Assembly: GCA_030595925.1 (NCBI GenBank)
Contig: JAUVLC010000031.1
Span: 1 to 23,202, forward strand
From: Clostridia bacterium
GTDB lineage: Bacteria > CBDUZB01 > JAGLHV01
DNA: 23,202 nt
Direction: 5' to 3'
The position numbers and the translations under genes were made by a program. The notes below the pieces were generated by a model. That model ran no database searches, was not told the origin of the DNA, and saw only the letters and a list, made by a program, of their open reading frames with translations. Numbering within the stretch: position 1 is the first letter of the stretch; every line of letters starts with the position of its first letter. Below, in pieces: positions 14,901-23,202 of the stretch.

Positions 14901-16718
14901 ATGAGAAAATATTTTTTGTTTGTTAGCTTGTTGATATTGGTTCTTTTTTTATTTACGATGAGTGGCTGGGCTAAAATCATCACTAAAAAATCAATGATTT
15001 CTATAACCCTCCCCGCTGAAACCACTCTTCCGAACATATCTAATGATTATATTCAGGTGGTAATTGGTGAAACTGGAAGATTTACCTTGGGTAATATCGG
15101 AGGGGACCCCGATAATCCTAACGACGATGATAAAATATTATTGTTTGGGCATCCCGGTCCCTGGAGTTCATTTACTTCCATCAGGATAGATGGGACGGAT
15201 TATATATTTGGAGGGGGAACAGAGGTTGTTGCTCCCTGTCAACAAGGAGGTAGTTTAGTTGCTTCTTGGAAAATTGTCCCGCAAATAGTAGTTACCCAAA
15301 CTCTTACTATCATAAGGAGTTTTTCTACAGGGAGAGATGATAATTTACAGATTGCCTATGAAATAAAAAATGAAGGAAGCAGTTTCCCTCAGATAGGGCT
15401 TTCTTTAATGTTGGATACAATGTTAGGCGATAATGACGGGGCTCCTTTTCGTGTTTTGGGATTTGGGGAAGTTACAATAGAGAAAGAATGGGTAAGCCCG
15501 GCAGACACCATTCCTCAGTATTTTCAGGTATTTGATAATTTTGATGATCCTACGGTTCTTTCTATGTTTTCTATAACCGGCGTAGGTTTTCCTGCTCCTG
15601 ACCGTCTTGTTCTTGGTGACTGGTACGAAGCTTCTGGATATACAGTAGATTTTGGAGATCCTTATGCAGGCGATTCTTCTGCACCATGGAATTATACCAT
15701 TGATTCCTCTATTCCGTTTGATGACGGTGCGGTAATCATTTCCTGGAATCCGCTTAGTTTTAGTCCCGGACAATCAAGAACTTACGGGACAGGTTATGGT
15801 TTAGGCGGGATGACCTATGTAGCCTGGGATCCTTTTAATCTTGGTTTATCCGCTCCGGAATTTATTCAGATAGACGGAAGTAATGAATATGTTCCCAATC
15901 CTTTTACTGTCGTCTGTTATTTGAAAAATTCCTCCGGACATGAAGTTGCCGGAGCAACAGTGAAGTTTAATTTAGTTCCCGGATTGGTTTTTGATACCGG
16001 AGAAACAGCAGAAAAGGCCATTGAGCCACCAGTGCCTGCAGAAGAAATTGTACAAGAGGATTGGAGTATAAAAGCCTTGGGTACAATGACCGGTTATTTA
16101 GACCTTTCAGTTACTTGTTATGCCGAAGGAAAAAATCAAACAATTACCAAATCAATATACATTCCGGCTTTACCTAATTCCATTCACGGACGGGTTACCA
16201 ATAGTGATGCCCAACCCTTAGTATCAGTGACAATTAATATTTTTTATAACGGTGCGTTGGTAGCTAGTACTACACCTTTTTCCGATGGAACCTTTTTGAT
16301 TGAAGATTTAACACCGGGAACTTACCAGCTTGTGGCCACTTCTGATGAATATGCTAACCGAACTATGCCGGTTAATGTAGGTTCGGGAACTGATACTGAA
16401 AATATTAATGTTGTTTTATTTCGGCCTTTTGAGGATACGGAAAAATTAGAAGCTTTTTGTTATCCTAATCCGGTTAGGCAAAATCCGGTACGCATTGTAT
16501 TTTATACCGAAGAATCAGCAGAGGTTGAAGTAGAAATATTTACTACTGCCGGAAAACGGGTAAAAACTTATAACACCACTACTAACGGAAGCGGTCATTT
16601 TGGAGTGGATTGGAATATAAATGATGTGGCTAACGGGGTATATTTTTACCGGGTTACTGCTACCTGGGGAGGAAAAGAAAGAACAGTAATCAAGAAAATT
16701 GCGGTAATTAAACGATAG
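14901..16718 (+). CDS. Secreted multidomain protein with carboxypeptidase-regulatory-like and C-terminal sorting-type domains
   Basis: A 605-residue exported protein of unknown function. A signal peptide covers about residues 1-24 (ends SGWA). The large N-terminal part (about 30-310) is beta-rich, with a GDPDNPNDDDK acidic stretch, and I do not recognise its fold. About 310-425 looks Ig-like. About 428-509 is a carboxypeptidase regulatory-like (prealbumin-type) domain beginning HGRVTNSDAQPL and containing TPGTYQL. The last 85 residues begin YPNPV (521-525) and end in a beta-rich tail with GVYFYRV and KIAVIKR. That is the layout of the FlgD-Ig/type-A sorting domains that guide proteins through or onto the outer membrane. 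The neighbouring PorV-family gene supports surface delivery. The start ATG has AAAGGATG just upstream. Confidence 0.82.
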   Translation: MRKYFLFVSLLILVLFLFTMSGWAKIITKKSMISITLPAETTLPNISNDYIQVVIGETGRFTLGNIGGDPDNPNDDDKILLFGHPGPWSSFTSIRIDGTDYIFGGGTEVVAPCQQGGSLVASWKIVPQIVVTQTLTIIRSFSTGRDDNLQIAYEIKNEGSSFPQIGLSLMLDTMLGDNDGAPFRVLGFGEVTIEKEWVSPADTIPQYFQVFDNFDDPTVLSMFSITGVGFPAPDRLVLGDWYEASGYTVDFGDPYAGDSSAPWNYTIDSSIPFDDGAVIISWNPLSFSPGQSRTYGTGYGLGGMTYVAWDPFNLGLSAPEFIQIDGSNEYVPNPFTVVCYLKNSSGHEVAGATVKFNLVPGLVFDTGETAEKAIEPPVPAEEIVQEDWSIKALGTMTGYLDLSVTCYAEGKNQTITKSIYIPALPNSIHGRVTNSDAQPLVSVTINIFYNGALVASTTPFSDGTFLIEDLTPGTYQLVATSDEYANRTMPVNVGSGTDTENINVVLFRPFEDTEKLEAFCYPNPVRQNPVRIVFYTEESAEVEVEIFTTAGKRVKTYNTTTNGSGHFGVDWNINDVANGVYFYRVTATWGGKERTVIKKIAVIKR

Positions 16719-17030: not shown

Positions 17031-18047
17031 ATGAATTCTAAAAAAAATTATTATTTAAAAAAAAATTTAATTAGTTTATGGATTTTAATATTAATCTTTG
17101 TTTTTTCTAAATGTTGGTTGTTGGCAGATGATGAGGGCTTGGCTGAAGGAGCAGGTGCTTATCTTAGTATGGGTATAGGAGCAAGACCTTTAGGAATGGG
17201 GAATGCTTTTGTAGCGGTAGCGGATGGTTCTTCCAGTCTTTATTGGAATCCGGCTGGATTGTCCCGGATACGGCGTCATCAGACAATGCTTATGTCCGGT
17301 TCATTAGGGGTAGATCGTTTTTATAATTATTTGGATTATGTTTATCCTTTAGTATGGGGTGATGACGAAGAGGGGGGTACTTTTGCCAGTAGTTGGTCAT
17401 TTGGTGATGAAGATCAAGGACCGTCTTACGGAGGGGTTGCTTTAGGTTGGATAAATTTTAGTGTAAAAAACATTGAAGGAAGAGATGATTATGGCCGGCC
17501 AACGGGAAATTTTGAAGATAAAGAGAACACTCTTATTGTTGGTTTTGGAAAGCAATTCGGAGGAAAATTTTCTTGTGGAACAAGCTTTAAATATCATATA
17601 CAAAAATTAGAAAAGGAAAAAGCTACGGGTTTTAGTTTTGATTTCGGAACAATGTACGATCCTTCACTGGCATGGTCTTTTGGATTGTGTGTACAGAATA
17701 TAATGGGCTCTTTAAAATGGTCTTTGGACGGAGGTTCGGTGAAAGATGATATTTTATTAAACATAAGATTTGGTAGTGCATATAGAGCTTTAAAAAACAA
17801 ATTATTGTTGGCTTTGGATGTGGAAAAAACCCTTCAGCAGAATATAAGGTTTTATTTTGGTAGTGAATATCAGATATCAAAAAATGTTTCTCTTAGAGCG
17901 GGAAGCAGTAATTTTAATCCTACGCTGGGAACCAGTTTAATCCTGCCTTTCAAGATATTTACTATGAAACTTGATTATGCTCTTTTAATGGATATGCAAG
18001 AAGATTTAAATTGGACCAACCGCTTTTCTTTACGTGCTTCTTTTTAA
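17031..18047 (+). CDS. PorV/PorQ (UPF0164)-family outer-membrane beta-barrel protein
   Basis: A 338-residue predicted outer-membrane barrel. The signal peptide spans about residues 1-33, ending CWLLADDEG. The family signature follows: GIGARPLGMGNAFVAVADG with YWNPAGLSRI (about 48-80). The rest alternates hydrophobic and polar residues with Gly/Tyr/Trp turns, as barrel strands do, and the last residues (FSLRASF) end in Phe as outer-membrane barrels often do. In Bacteroidetes the relative PorV shuttles cargo with C-terminal sorting domains in type IX secretion. Here the previous gene encodes a protein with such a domain, so a matching role is plausible but not shown; no other secretion component is in the window. 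Start ATG 17031 has a weak AAAGG 7 bases upstream. Confidence 0.85.
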   Translation: MNSKKNYYLKKNLISLWILILIFVFSKCWLLADDEGLAEGAGAYLSMGIGARPLGMGNAFVAVADGSSSLYWNPAGLSRIRRHQTMLMSGSLGVDRFYNYLDYVYPLVWGDDEEGGTFASSWSFGDEDQGPSYGGVALGWINFSVKNIEGRDDYGRPTGNFEDKENTLIVGFGKQFGGKFSCGTSFKYHIQKLEKEKATGFSFDFGTMYDPSLAWSFGLCVQNIMGSLKWSLDGGSVKDDILLNIRFGSAYRALKNKLLLALDVEKTLQQNIRFYFGSEYQISKNVSLRAGSSNFNPTLGTSLILPFKIFTMKLDYALLMDMQEDLNWTNRFSLRASF

Positions 18048-20163: not shown

Positions 20164-20191
20164 TTGACAATATGAAAAAAGGTGTTATATT
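20164..20191 (+). promoter_or_regulatory. Predicted sigma70-type promoter for the riboswitch transcript
   Basis: Perfect TTGACA at 20164-20169 and TATATT at 20186-20191, 16-bp spacing. The expected start, near 20198-20200, places the palindrome and the riboswitch in or at the very start of the RNA. Confidence 0.7.
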
Positions 20192-20193
20192 TT

Positions 20194-20229
20194 AAGTAAT
20201 GGGTGTGATTAAAATCACATTTATTACTT
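20194..20229. promoter_or_regulatory. CRP/FNR-family-type operator palindrome overlapping the transcription start
   Basis: The centre TGTGA-TTAAAA-TCACA (20204-20219) matches the CRP consensus TGTGA-N6-TCACA exactly. It is nested in a larger inverted repeat with outer arms AAGTAAT (20194-20200) and ATTACTT (20223-20229), joined by GGG opposite TTT, which could pair as G-U in RNA. Bound here, just downstream of the -10, a regulator would most likely repress. Alternatively the whole palindrome is a 5' RNA hairpin. Confidence 0.55.
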
Positions 20230-20260
20230 GATAAGTAAATAGAGAAAATTAGTTGCTCTG

Positions 20261-20340
20261 ATAAAGGTAAACCTCGGGAAACCGGGGGGCACAAAACTAC
20301 TGTTCCATAATTATTATGGAAGGCTGGGTTGCCAGGGTAT
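20261..20340 (+). promoter_or_regulatory. GEMM-I class riboswitch aptamer (cyclic di-GMP-I / cGAMP family)
   Basis: The fold and key bases of the GEMM-I motif are present. P1 pairs GGTAA (20266-20270) with TTGCC (20329-20333). Next to it is the conserved AAACC. A stem CCTCGG/CCGGGG (20272-20277 with 20282-20287) carries a GAAA tetraloop (20278-20281). The GCACAAAACTACTG strand follows in the place of the consensus GACGCAAAGCC. The P3 stem TTCCATAA/TTATGGAA has a 3-nt loop (20303-20321). The aptamer closes with GGCTGGGTTGCC, nearly the classical 3' end. It sits after a promoter and before an intrinsic terminator in the 5' UTR of an exported protein gene. Confidence 0.87.
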
Positions 20341-20350
20341 AAACAGAAAT

Positions 20351-20396
20351 AAAACCGAGTTAACCGTAGTAAAAAAACGGAATAACTCGGTTTTTT
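20351..20396 (+). terminator. Intrinsic terminator, expression platform of the riboswitch
   Basis: A 12-bp stem AAAACCGAGTTA (20351-20362) with TAACTCGGTTTT (20383-20394) and an inner CCGT/ACGG pairing, followed by a T tract to 20396. It begins about 18 nt after the aptamer. Its 5' arm CCGAGTTAACC (20355-20365) can also pair with the aptamer strand GGTAAACCTCGG (20266-20277). Confidence 0.88.
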
Positions 20397-20424: not shown

Positions 20425-20856
20425 ATGAAAAAAAATAGGTTGATGCTTTTGGTTTTTCTTGTACTTCTTCTGTGGAACAATAAAATTCATGCTTCCTGTT
20501 TTAATAAAACATCGTTTTTATTTGCTCCAACCACACAGGATTTTTGTTTCCGCACAAAAATACAATTTTTACCTCTTTATCTGGTTTTTCCTGATTTGGA
20601 TACTCGGGATGAGGAAAACAAACCTATGGAAAATTACGATAATTTATTTTTAGATGATTTTTTTCATAGATATGAAATTTTTACCGTTTGGGGTGTTTTT
20701 GAGAAGAAGAAAACAATTAAAGACATAAAATTAAAAATCATAAATTTAACTATATTAGAAGTTGTAATTTCTCAAAATTACACGAAATATCTCTCTTCTT
20801 CTTACTTTTTCGAAGTAGGAAACCTTTCTTTAAAGCCTGAAATCCTCCTTTGTTGA
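20425..20856 (+). CDS. Small exported protein of unknown function, riboswitch-controlled
   Basis: A 143-residue protein directly downstream of the riboswitch terminator. The N-terminus is a clear signal peptide: Lys-Lys-Asn-Arg, then a run of Leu/Val/Phe to about residue 16, with a likely cut after KIHA. The mature part has two Cys early on, is rich in Phe and Tyr, and has an acidic segment (DLDTRDEENKPMENYD), but I recognise no domain. ATG 20425 has GGAG at 20414-20417; a TTG at 20419 is less likely. The gene could be the intact remainder of a longer gene, because the 384 bp after it look like decayed coding sequence. A role at the cell surface would fit its control but is only an inference. 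Confidence 0.6.
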   Translation: MKKNRLMLLVFLVLLLWNNKIHASCFNKTSFLFAPTTQDFCFRTKIQFLPLYLVFPDLDTRDEENKPMENYDNLFLDDFFHRYEIFTVWGVFEKKKTIKDIKLKIINLTILEVVISQNYTKYLSSSYFFEVGNLSLKPEILLC

Positions 20857-21240: not shown

Positions 21241-23202
21241 ATGAGTAAAAGATTACTCTTTAAGGGCATTTTAATTATTGTAACTTTATTTACAATTTCA
21301 AACATTTTTTTGGTTAATAGTTTTTCTGCTACGACGGATAAAGATTTTTTATTGGATGACAAGATCGGTGATTCTCCTCAGGTTATTATGAAAGATCAAG
21401 ACGAAAATAACCTTATCATTCAGAAACTTGATTCTGGGGAGGCAAATATTATTAATGATGAAGGAGATATTAATCTTAAACCATCCGGCGATCTTAATAA
21501 TTATTTTCAAATGCTTACAATTGCCAATGCTCCTTATTTGTATTGGTTTATTAATGGATATACAAATTTACCGGGTTTTAGAGTAAATCCCGCAACAGGA
21601 AAGTTAGAATATCGTGATGAGGATGTTGCTACCTGGGTAGAATTGGATAATTTAGGCGCAGGCAGTACTAACCTGGGGGATTTAGCAGATGTAAATTTTG
21701 GGGGAGGCCCATCTCAAGGCGATATATTGTATTATAATAGTTTAGATTGGGTAAATCTTCCTGCAGGTTCTTCCGGTCAGTTTTTGCGAACACAGGGAGC
21801 AGGAGCAAACCCTATATGGGCTAATGTTTCAGCTACTGACGAATTGGTCAAAGCGGGAGTAGGAGGTACACCTCGATATTTAGACGACGGGGATTTTAGC
21901 GATACCGGGGTCCATATTGAAATAGCTAATGATGCGATTAATACAGTAAAAATATTAGATGCTAATGTTACTACAGCTAAGATTGCTGATTCAAGTATAA
22001 CTACTGTTAAAATCGCTGACGCCAATATTACTACCGCAAAGATATTAAATGCCAACGTAACTACAGCGAAGATTGCTGATGCTAATGTTACTACCGCAAA
22101 GATATTAAATGCTAATGTAACTACGATAAAAATCGCAGATGATGCAGTTACCGAACCCAAGTTAGATGTAATGGATGTGCCTGCAGACGGTGAAGTTCTT
22201 GCTTGGAATAATGGCAGCAGCAAATTCGAATGGGTAGTTCAAACTGCAAGCACTGACGAATTGGTCAAAGCGGGAGTAGGAGGTACACCTCGATATTTAG
22301 ACGACGGGGATTTTAGCGATAATGGAACGAGTCTGGAAATAGCTAATGATGCGATTAATACAGTAAAAATATTAGATGCTAATGTTACTACAGCTAAGAT
22401 TGCTGATTCAAGTATAACTACTGTTAAAATCGCTGACGCTAATGTAACTACCGCAAAGATATTGGATGCCAATGTAACCACTGCGAAAATATTAGATGCT
22501 AATGTTACTACAGCTAAAATCGCCGATTCAAATGTAACCACTGTCAAAATTGCAGACTCGAATGTTACTACCGCAAAGATATTGGATGCAAATGTAACGA
22601 CAGCCAAAGTAGCAGATGATGCAGTTACCGAACCCAAGTTAGATGTAATGGATGTGCCTGCAGACGGTGAAGTTCTTGCCTGGAATAATGCCAACAGCAG
22701 ATTCGAATGGGTGGTTCAAACAGCCGGCAGTGACGAATTAGTAAAGGCGGGAGCTGCCGGAACACCGAGATATTTGGATGCCGGGGATTTTACGGATAAT
22801 GGAATCAGTCTGGAAATAGCTAATGATGCAATAGATACGGCAAAGATATTAAATGCGAATGTGACCACAGCGAAGATAGCGGATTCAAGTATAACCACAG
22901 TTAAAATTGCTGACGCTAATGTAACCACGGTAAAAATCGCCGACGATAGCATAACCACTGTTAAGGTCTTAGACTCTAATATAACTACTTCTAAAATCGC
23001 TGACGCCAATATTACTACCGCAAAAATATTAGATGTAAATGTTACTACCGCTAAAATTGCCGATGCCAATATAACGACAACCAAAGTAGCTGACGATGCA
23101 ATATCCGAACCCAAATTAGATGTAATGGATGTTCCGGCAGACGGAGAAGTATTAGCCTGGAACAATGCCAACAGCAGATTCGAATGGGTAGTTCAAAGCA
23201 GT
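21241..23202 (+). CDS. Large exported fibre-like repeat protein, 3' partial
   Basis: An open frame of 654 codons with no stop before the window edge. ATG 21241 has AGGAGGAA at 21227-21234. Residues 1-30 form a signal peptide (ends NSFSA). Residues 31-198 contain phage-tail-fibre-like wording (LGDLADVNFGG, GDILYYNSLDWVNLPAGSSGQFLRTQGAGANPIW). Then come three modules, each opening DELVKAG..GTPRYLD, followed by tandem decapeptides of consensus K-I-A-D-A-N-V-T-T-A and closing EPKLDVMDVPADGEVLAWNN. Modules 1, 2 and 3 have 8, 10 and 10 decapeptides. Such short repeats are typical of beta-helical, often trimeric, fibres and adhesins; a C-terminal chaperone or anchor may lie past the edge. The spacing from the riboswitch gene leaves co-regulation open. 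The function is not known. Confidence 0.88.
   Translation, partial: MSKRLLFKGILIIVTLFTISNIFLVNSFSATTDKDFLLDDKIGDSPQVIMKDQDENNLIIQKLDSGEANIINDEGDINLKPSGDLNNYFQMLTIANAPYLYWFINGYTNLPGFRVNPATGKLEYRDEDVATWVELDNLGAGSTNLGDLADVNFGGGPSQGDILYYNSLDWVNLPAGSSGQFLRTQGAGANPIWANVSATDELVKAGVGGTPRYLDDGDFSDTGVHIEIANDAINTVKILDANVTTAKIADSSITTVKIADANITTAKILNANVTTAKIADANVTTAKILNANVTTIKIADDAVTEPKLDVMDVPADGEVLAWNNGSSKFEWVVQTASTDELVKAGVGGTPRYLDDGDFSDNGTSLEIANDAINTVKILDANVTTAKIADSSITTVKIADANVTTAKILDANVTTAKILDANVTTAKIADSNVTTVKIADSNVTTAKILDANVTTAKVADDAVTEPKLDVMDVPADGEVLAWNNANSRFEWVVQTAGSDELVKAGAAGTPRYLDAGDFTDNGISLEIANDAIDTAKILNANVTTAKIADSSITTVKIADANVTTVKIADDSITTVKVLDSNITTSKIADANITTAKILDVNVTTAKIADANITTTKVADDAISEPKLDVMDVPADGEVLAWNNANSRFEWVVQSS
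21919..22158 (+). repeat. 30-bp tandem repeat array, 8 units (module 1)
   Basis: Eight exact-length 30-bp units encoding decapeptides from EIANDAINTV to KIADDAVTEP; module 1 as a whole spans 21835-22251. Confidence 0.9.
22336..22635 (+). repeat. 30-bp tandem repeat array, 10 units (module 2)
   Basis: Ten 30-bp units; module 2 spans 22252-22728 and is exactly 60 bp (two units) longer than module 1. Large parts are identical in DNA to module 1. Confidence 0.9.
22813..23112 (+). repeat. 30-bp tandem repeat array, 10 units (module 3)
   Basis: Ten 30-bp units in the module that begins at 22729 and reaches the window edge. The protein pattern is kept, but the codons differ from modules 1 and 2 at many third positions. 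Confidence 0.9.

Follow-up and report, generated by a model that had tools for sequence, protein, structure and literature searches.

In the Cd1 riboswitch of Clostridioides difficile, a transcriptional OFF switch, the terminator does not overlap the aptamer and can form alongside it, and an anti-terminator competes (PMC9262584). The pilM riboswitch of Geobacter metallireducens is an ON switch (PMC9262584), and Geobacter sulfurreducens carries 17 GEMM-I switches (PMC6456294). In Vibrio cholerae, gbpA encodes an exported colonisation factor under cAMP-CRP and c-di-GMP control; CRP activates it, and c-di-GMP inhibits its transcription independently of the Vc1 element (PMC4545359).

Here, we analysed a stretch of 23,202 nucleotides (the window), which is contig C152 of a MAG of 2.6 Mb (193 contigs, 97% complete). 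Its riboswitch is a real GEMM-I element of known class, and the target is an undescribed family of exported proteins. Our preferred reading, with a probability of roughly 0.6, is that a c-di-GMP-type GEMM-I OFF switch, accompanied by a CRP-type operator, controls a genus-specific exported protein and possibly also the fibre-like gene that follows. The features are:

20164..20191, forward strand: sigma-70-type promoter TTGACA-N16-TATATT, 11 of 12 consensus matches, expected start near 20198
20204..20219, no strand assigned: palindrome TGTGATTAAAATCACA of CRP type (TGTGA-N6-TCACA), 12 nt after the -10 and just 3' of the expected start
20256..20336, forward strand: GEMM-I aptamer (c-di-GMP-I, RF01051), from its Rfam score of 60.6 bits, position 20 and covariation in seven copies
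20296..20304, forward strand: 5' strand of P3, ACUACUGUU, the predicted anti-terminator strand from pairing tests and homologue comparison
20352..20396, forward strand: intrinsic terminator hairpin and T tract (-17.1 kcal/mol, T6), with covariation in homologues
20362..20370, forward strand: AACCGUAGU in the terminator 5' arm/loop, the predicted partner of 20296-20304 from pairing and folding
20425..20856, forward strand: small exported protein of 143 aa with an N-terminal signal peptide by inspection, one of three members in the MAG
21241..23202, forward strand, cut by the contig end: exported repeat-rich fibre-like protein, from PHROGs matches and conserved gene order

When the whole window was searched with the Rfam covariance models, RF01051 matched over its full length (model positions 1-87 of 87) with 60.6 bits and an E-value of 8e-10, against a gathering score of 35 bits, and no second Rfam match above threshold was found in it. 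The aptamer consists of P1 (CUCUG/CAGGG), a GAAA-capped P2, P3 and the 3' GGGUUGCC. It retains the conserved J2/3 and 3' strand of the class and the core motifs AAAGGUAAA, GGCACAAA and GGGUUGCC. Its predicted fold was better than that of 199 of 200 shuffled sequences (z -2.7). Across the seven homologous copies, aptamer and terminator together contain 12 pairs with changes on both sides, with 95% of cells paired; shuffled alignments gave a mean of 5.4 such pairs, and none of 500 reached 12.

The window copy thus shares with RF01051 a complete aptamer above threshold, G at position 20, the GNRA-capped P2, J2/3 and the 3' strand, but differs in a short P3, in which the tetraloop-receptor columns of the Rfam consensus are deleted while the GAAA loop is present. 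A tetraloop receptor in P3 is usual in RF01051 and not obligatory for passing the threshold; these columns are also missing in many other switches of the MAG, several of which pass it. The second pair of the model stem 12-13/36-37 is a compensated U-A in place of C-G. The paralogous switch at C137 scores slightly above the threshold of c-di-GMP-I-GGC (RF03167; 59.6 against 59), whereas the window copy falls under RF01051.

The first-pass annotation had recognised a GEMM-I element with P1, a GNRA-capped stem, P3 and the 3' motif, followed by an intrinsic terminator, and had proposed a search with the Rfam model; all of this was borne out. The element itself was correctly located, but its start was placed at 20261, whereas the covariance model begins at 20256, P1 possibly extends back to about 20255, and the gene's ATG is at 20425. 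The terminator hairpin proper spans 20352-20393 and the T tract ends at 20396. A simple consensus scan did not pick up this terminator because it permits only loops of 3-8 nucleotides.

The terminator is separate from the aptamer, so both can coexist, and pairing is possible between the terminator's 5' arm and the P3 5' strand; we therefore predict an OFF switch in which c-di-GMP causes termination. We infer the following course of events. RNA polymerase would start near 20198, cross the CRP-type operator and transcribe the aptamer. Without ligand, the P3 5' strand (20296-20304) would pair with 20362-20370, blocking the terminator hairpin and letting transcription reach the gene; binding of c-di-GMP would lock P3, the terminator at 20352-20396 would form and transcription would end. 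The arrangement resembles Cd1 in its separate, coexisting terminator and its predicted competing anti-terminator. In Cd1, however, the competing strand is the one that stabilises the aptamer, whereas our prediction here assigns this role to the P3 5' strand, and the target genes differ.

Comparison across the genus bears on this logic. Among its switches, 24 have a separate terminator, a group made up of the scan result plus three cases with interrupted T tracts and taking in tandem switches of probable ON type (C9, C178b and G2 C69). In many of these separate-terminator switches the terminator's 5' arm or loop has its complement in the 5' strand of P3. Own pairs averaged -11.65 kcal/mol against -9.87 +/- 0.39 for swapped ones, and none of 20000 permutations was as low, in a statistic that treats the switches as independent although they are related. 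Compensated forms of the anti-terminator occur across the copies (CUACGG/CCGUAG, CUGCGG/CCGCAG and UUACAG/CUGUAG); the seven cassettes of the exported-gene family, taken alone, contain a single compensated pair. In another 14 switches the terminator overlaps the aptamer, and these showed no own-pair effect (16861 of 20000 permutations as low). In them the 3' strand of the aptamer doubles as the terminator's 5' arm, and bound ligand should therefore prevent termination, as in pilM. At C140, C72a, C178a and C56 the MAG shares with pilM a terminator built in this way, unlike the window switch; such other switches of the MAG look ON-type.

The window copy is not the best representative of its own predicted mechanism. 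In transcripts ending just before the terminator's 3' arm, five of the seven cassettes have the pairing between the P3 5' strand and the terminator in their minimum-energy fold, and a sixth uses an alternative register. In the window, position 20301 is U where the six homologues have G, and it mispairs both in P3 and, as a U-C mismatch, in the anti-terminator, which is not the minimum-energy fold; 2.1 pairs are expected downstream against 3.4 within the aptamer. Its own pairing, at -6.9 kcal/mol, ranks poorly. Given this mismatch and weak pairing, the window copy may be leaky or impaired. A stronger version, in which the G-to-U change leaves the riboswitch mostly terminated or insensitive and the copy is decaying, would account for the loss of one P3 pair and one anti-terminator pair, and for an anti-terminator that, unlike that of the orthologue, is not favoured before the terminator forms. 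We regard it as unlikely: no further core position is altered, terminator and promoter are intact, and the open reading frame shows moderate constraint.

The promoter is not peculiar to this locus. A like arrangement precedes nearly all of the 43 GEMM-I aptamers examined in the genus, with a score of at least 10 in 67% of cases against 2% of shuffled upstream regions. The palindrome, on the other hand, marks the exported-gene family: with at most one mismatch it occurs in all seven of its cassettes against one of the 36 other aptamers. Altogether, 8 of the 43 aptamers have it within 90 bp upstream, including all seven of the family (hypergeometric P 2.5e-7 for the association, the copies being related and not independent). 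Perfect TGTGA-N6-TCACA sites number only four in the MAG, and three of them are found no more than 100 bp upstream of a GEMM-I aptamer (P 1.6e-9, again for related and not independent copies). One perfect site is found upstream of an aptamer (L038, C32:458-619, reverse strand) that is split by an insertion between P2 and P3 and scores below the gathering threshold; a group II intron match adjoins it at the contig end.

In all seven cassettes the palindrome begins 11-12 nt past the -10, and because of this fixed spacing an operator is its most likely identity. The position just 3' of the start suggests a putative CRP-type site acting by repression or as a roadblock. The palindrome lies within the expected transcript, where TGTGAT-AAAA-ATCACA could form a 6-bp stem, and it might instead be a hairpin of the leader RNA that affects transcript stability or early pausing. 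We doubt this: three of the seven copies read TGTGA......ACACA and so lose a stem pair with no compensating change, and the spacing is rigid to the -10 but loose on the aptamer side (33-40 nt), which fits a DNA site. Improbable, too, is an activator site in a class II CRP promoter with a start near 20253, just before the aptamer. The distance of about 41 nt from the centre of the site (20211.5) to P1 is indeed the class II spacing, but no -10 is recognisable for such a start, and the near-consensus promoter upstream, whose distance to the palindrome is fixed throughout the seven copies, places this reading below the operator.

The operator reading would assign the site to the sole CRP/FNR-type regulator of the MAG, which would repress or block initiation or early elongation. 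This protein, encoded at C78, contains HTH_Crp_2 and a cyclic-nucleotide domain. Among NCBIfam models it matches CRP best, at 112.6 bits and so below the equivalog cut-off of 266. By inspection, its cyclic-nucleotide pocket shows E...RS and its recognition helix RExxxK, and the MAG also encodes a class III nucleotide cyclase; the C78 protein is probably cAMP-responsive. The genome thus holds both a perfect TGTGA-N6-TCACA site and a CRP-like protein. With its CRP-cAMP promoter and Vc1 element, gbpA offers a precedent for an exported product under such dual control, but CRP activates there, whereas the palindrome here lies 3' of the predicted start and control is read from sequence.

The 143-aa protein had no match in Pfam, NCBIfam, PHROGs or PDB sequences. 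Paralogues are encoded at C137 (42% identity) and C193 (48%) of the MAG, and the two other genomes of the genus each have relatives, one of which is a fragment at a contig end; none was found outside the genus in 57 more distant genomes (domain-level relatives) or in a pattern scan of GTDB species. Orthologue pairs gave dN/dS values of 0.52, 0.40 and 0.34, so the gene is coding and under moderate constraint. AlphaFold, run on four homologous sequences, gave no usable model (mean pLDDT 34). A lipoprotein was considered and rejected, since the cysteine after the signal peptide is not conserved.

The cassette is present in seven copies over the three genomes of the genus, one being the contig-end fragment, always in the same order: TTGACA promoter, palindrome with no or one mismatch, GEMM-I aptamer starting with CUCUG, and separate terminator. 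What follows the family member varies with the paralogous locus: the fibre-like gene, small secreted proteins with a larger exported one, or a short HicB-like protein with T9SS-tail and PorV-like proteins. With different genes downstream at the three paralogous loci, the cassette seems to have been duplicated before different surface loci. In the window, the large fibre-like protein expected after the first gene does run from 21241 to the contig end. Phage tail-fibre PHROGs match over its repeats (best 2.3e-99), and an orthologue follows the homologous cassette in JAGLHV010000132.1, with gene order kept. It was not named a pentapeptide-repeat protein; the NCBIfam matches concern only the repeats and are far under the curated cut-offs.

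These results amend the first-pass annotation, which had described an exported orphan gene and a candidate new class of cyclic-dinucleotide target. The gene product is exported and an orphan as far as curated families go, but it is not a singleton, for its family, confined to the genus, counts three members in the MAG; the riboswitch-gene pair, which was to be looked for in related genomes, is conserved in the genus. A new target family stands. A new class of target is too strong, because this is one of 18 GEMM-I switches in a regulon of otherwise ordinary content (pilin-like, PilZ and secreted proteins). That annotation mentions neither the CRP-like palindrome nor the triplication, nor does it predict OFF logic. 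The analysis adds a new protein family to the likely outputs of c-di-GMP, and the seven naturally occurring versions of the cassette provide material for testing switch logic. More tentatively, and with somewhat less than even odds, a duplicated, self-contained cassette of promoter, CRP-type operator, c-di-GMP OFF switch with an anti-terminator from the P3 strand, and new exported family would front different surface-protein loci in a little-known lineage and integrate two nucleotide second messengers for this new output family.

The MAG contains 18 GEMM-I aptamers above threshold plus one interrupted copy slightly under it, and each of the two other genomes of the genus contains 12. Among the genes 3' of the MAG switches are those for pilin-like proteins, for a subtilase, for a PilZ protein (the second gene at C191) and for proteins that resemble PorV or carry type IX sorting tails. 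Pilin-like, PilZ, protease and secreted-protein genes, which follow many of the 18 switches, are typical GEMM targets, and the GEMM-I regulon of this MAG is of the ordinary kind. In the window itself, a Por_Secre_tail protein (14901-16718) lies beside a PorV/PorQ-family protein (17031-18047), a pair that may be taken as signs of type IX secretion in the lineage.

The predicted ligand of the window aptamer is c-di-GMP rather than cGAMP, because the window copy and all six homologues carry G at RF01051 position 20; the A at this position that marks cGAMP (GEMM-Ib) aptamers appears in none of the seven. That the window aptamer senses cGAMP is very improbable: some GEMM-I aptamers of the genus do have A at position 20, as in the one crystallised with cGAMP (PMC6274999), but all seven cassettes of the exported-gene family have G. 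The MAG has nine GGDEF matches, so c-di-GMP synthesis is expected in it; no EAL domain was found there. The GHxxGD position, at which Ser is the Hypr signature (PMC6456294), was read in six of the nine and is Asp in four, Asn in two (the GGDEF proteins L076 and L080) and Ser in none.

Aptamers with A at position 20 number four in the genus (G0 C56, G2 C179, G1 C125 and G1 C323c). The first of these (L033, C56:6807-6887, reverse strand) matches Rfam c-di-GMP-I-UAU, precedes pilin-like genes and a T9SS-tail protein, and is a candidate cGAMP switch of the MAG. By their similar flanks, L050 1077-1160 (G1 C125, A20) and L005 1501-1583 (G0 C122) seem to be corresponding loci, as do L059 1501-1584 (G1 C323c, A20) and both L015 and L004. 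A20 and G20 at corresponding loci of different species may mean that the ligand has changed naturally, from c-di-GMP to cGAMP. Since ON- and OFF-type platforms, and likewise G20 and A20 aptamers, appear to occur side by side in the genus, seemingly even at corresponding loci, it offers a natural series for the evolution of riboswitch sign and ligand. Tandem or nested GEMM-I elements were also seen, at L028 2822-2961 (C178b), L063, L064 and L034, where a second aptamer-like 3' strand (GCAGCCGAGCUACCGA or similar) precedes the terminator.
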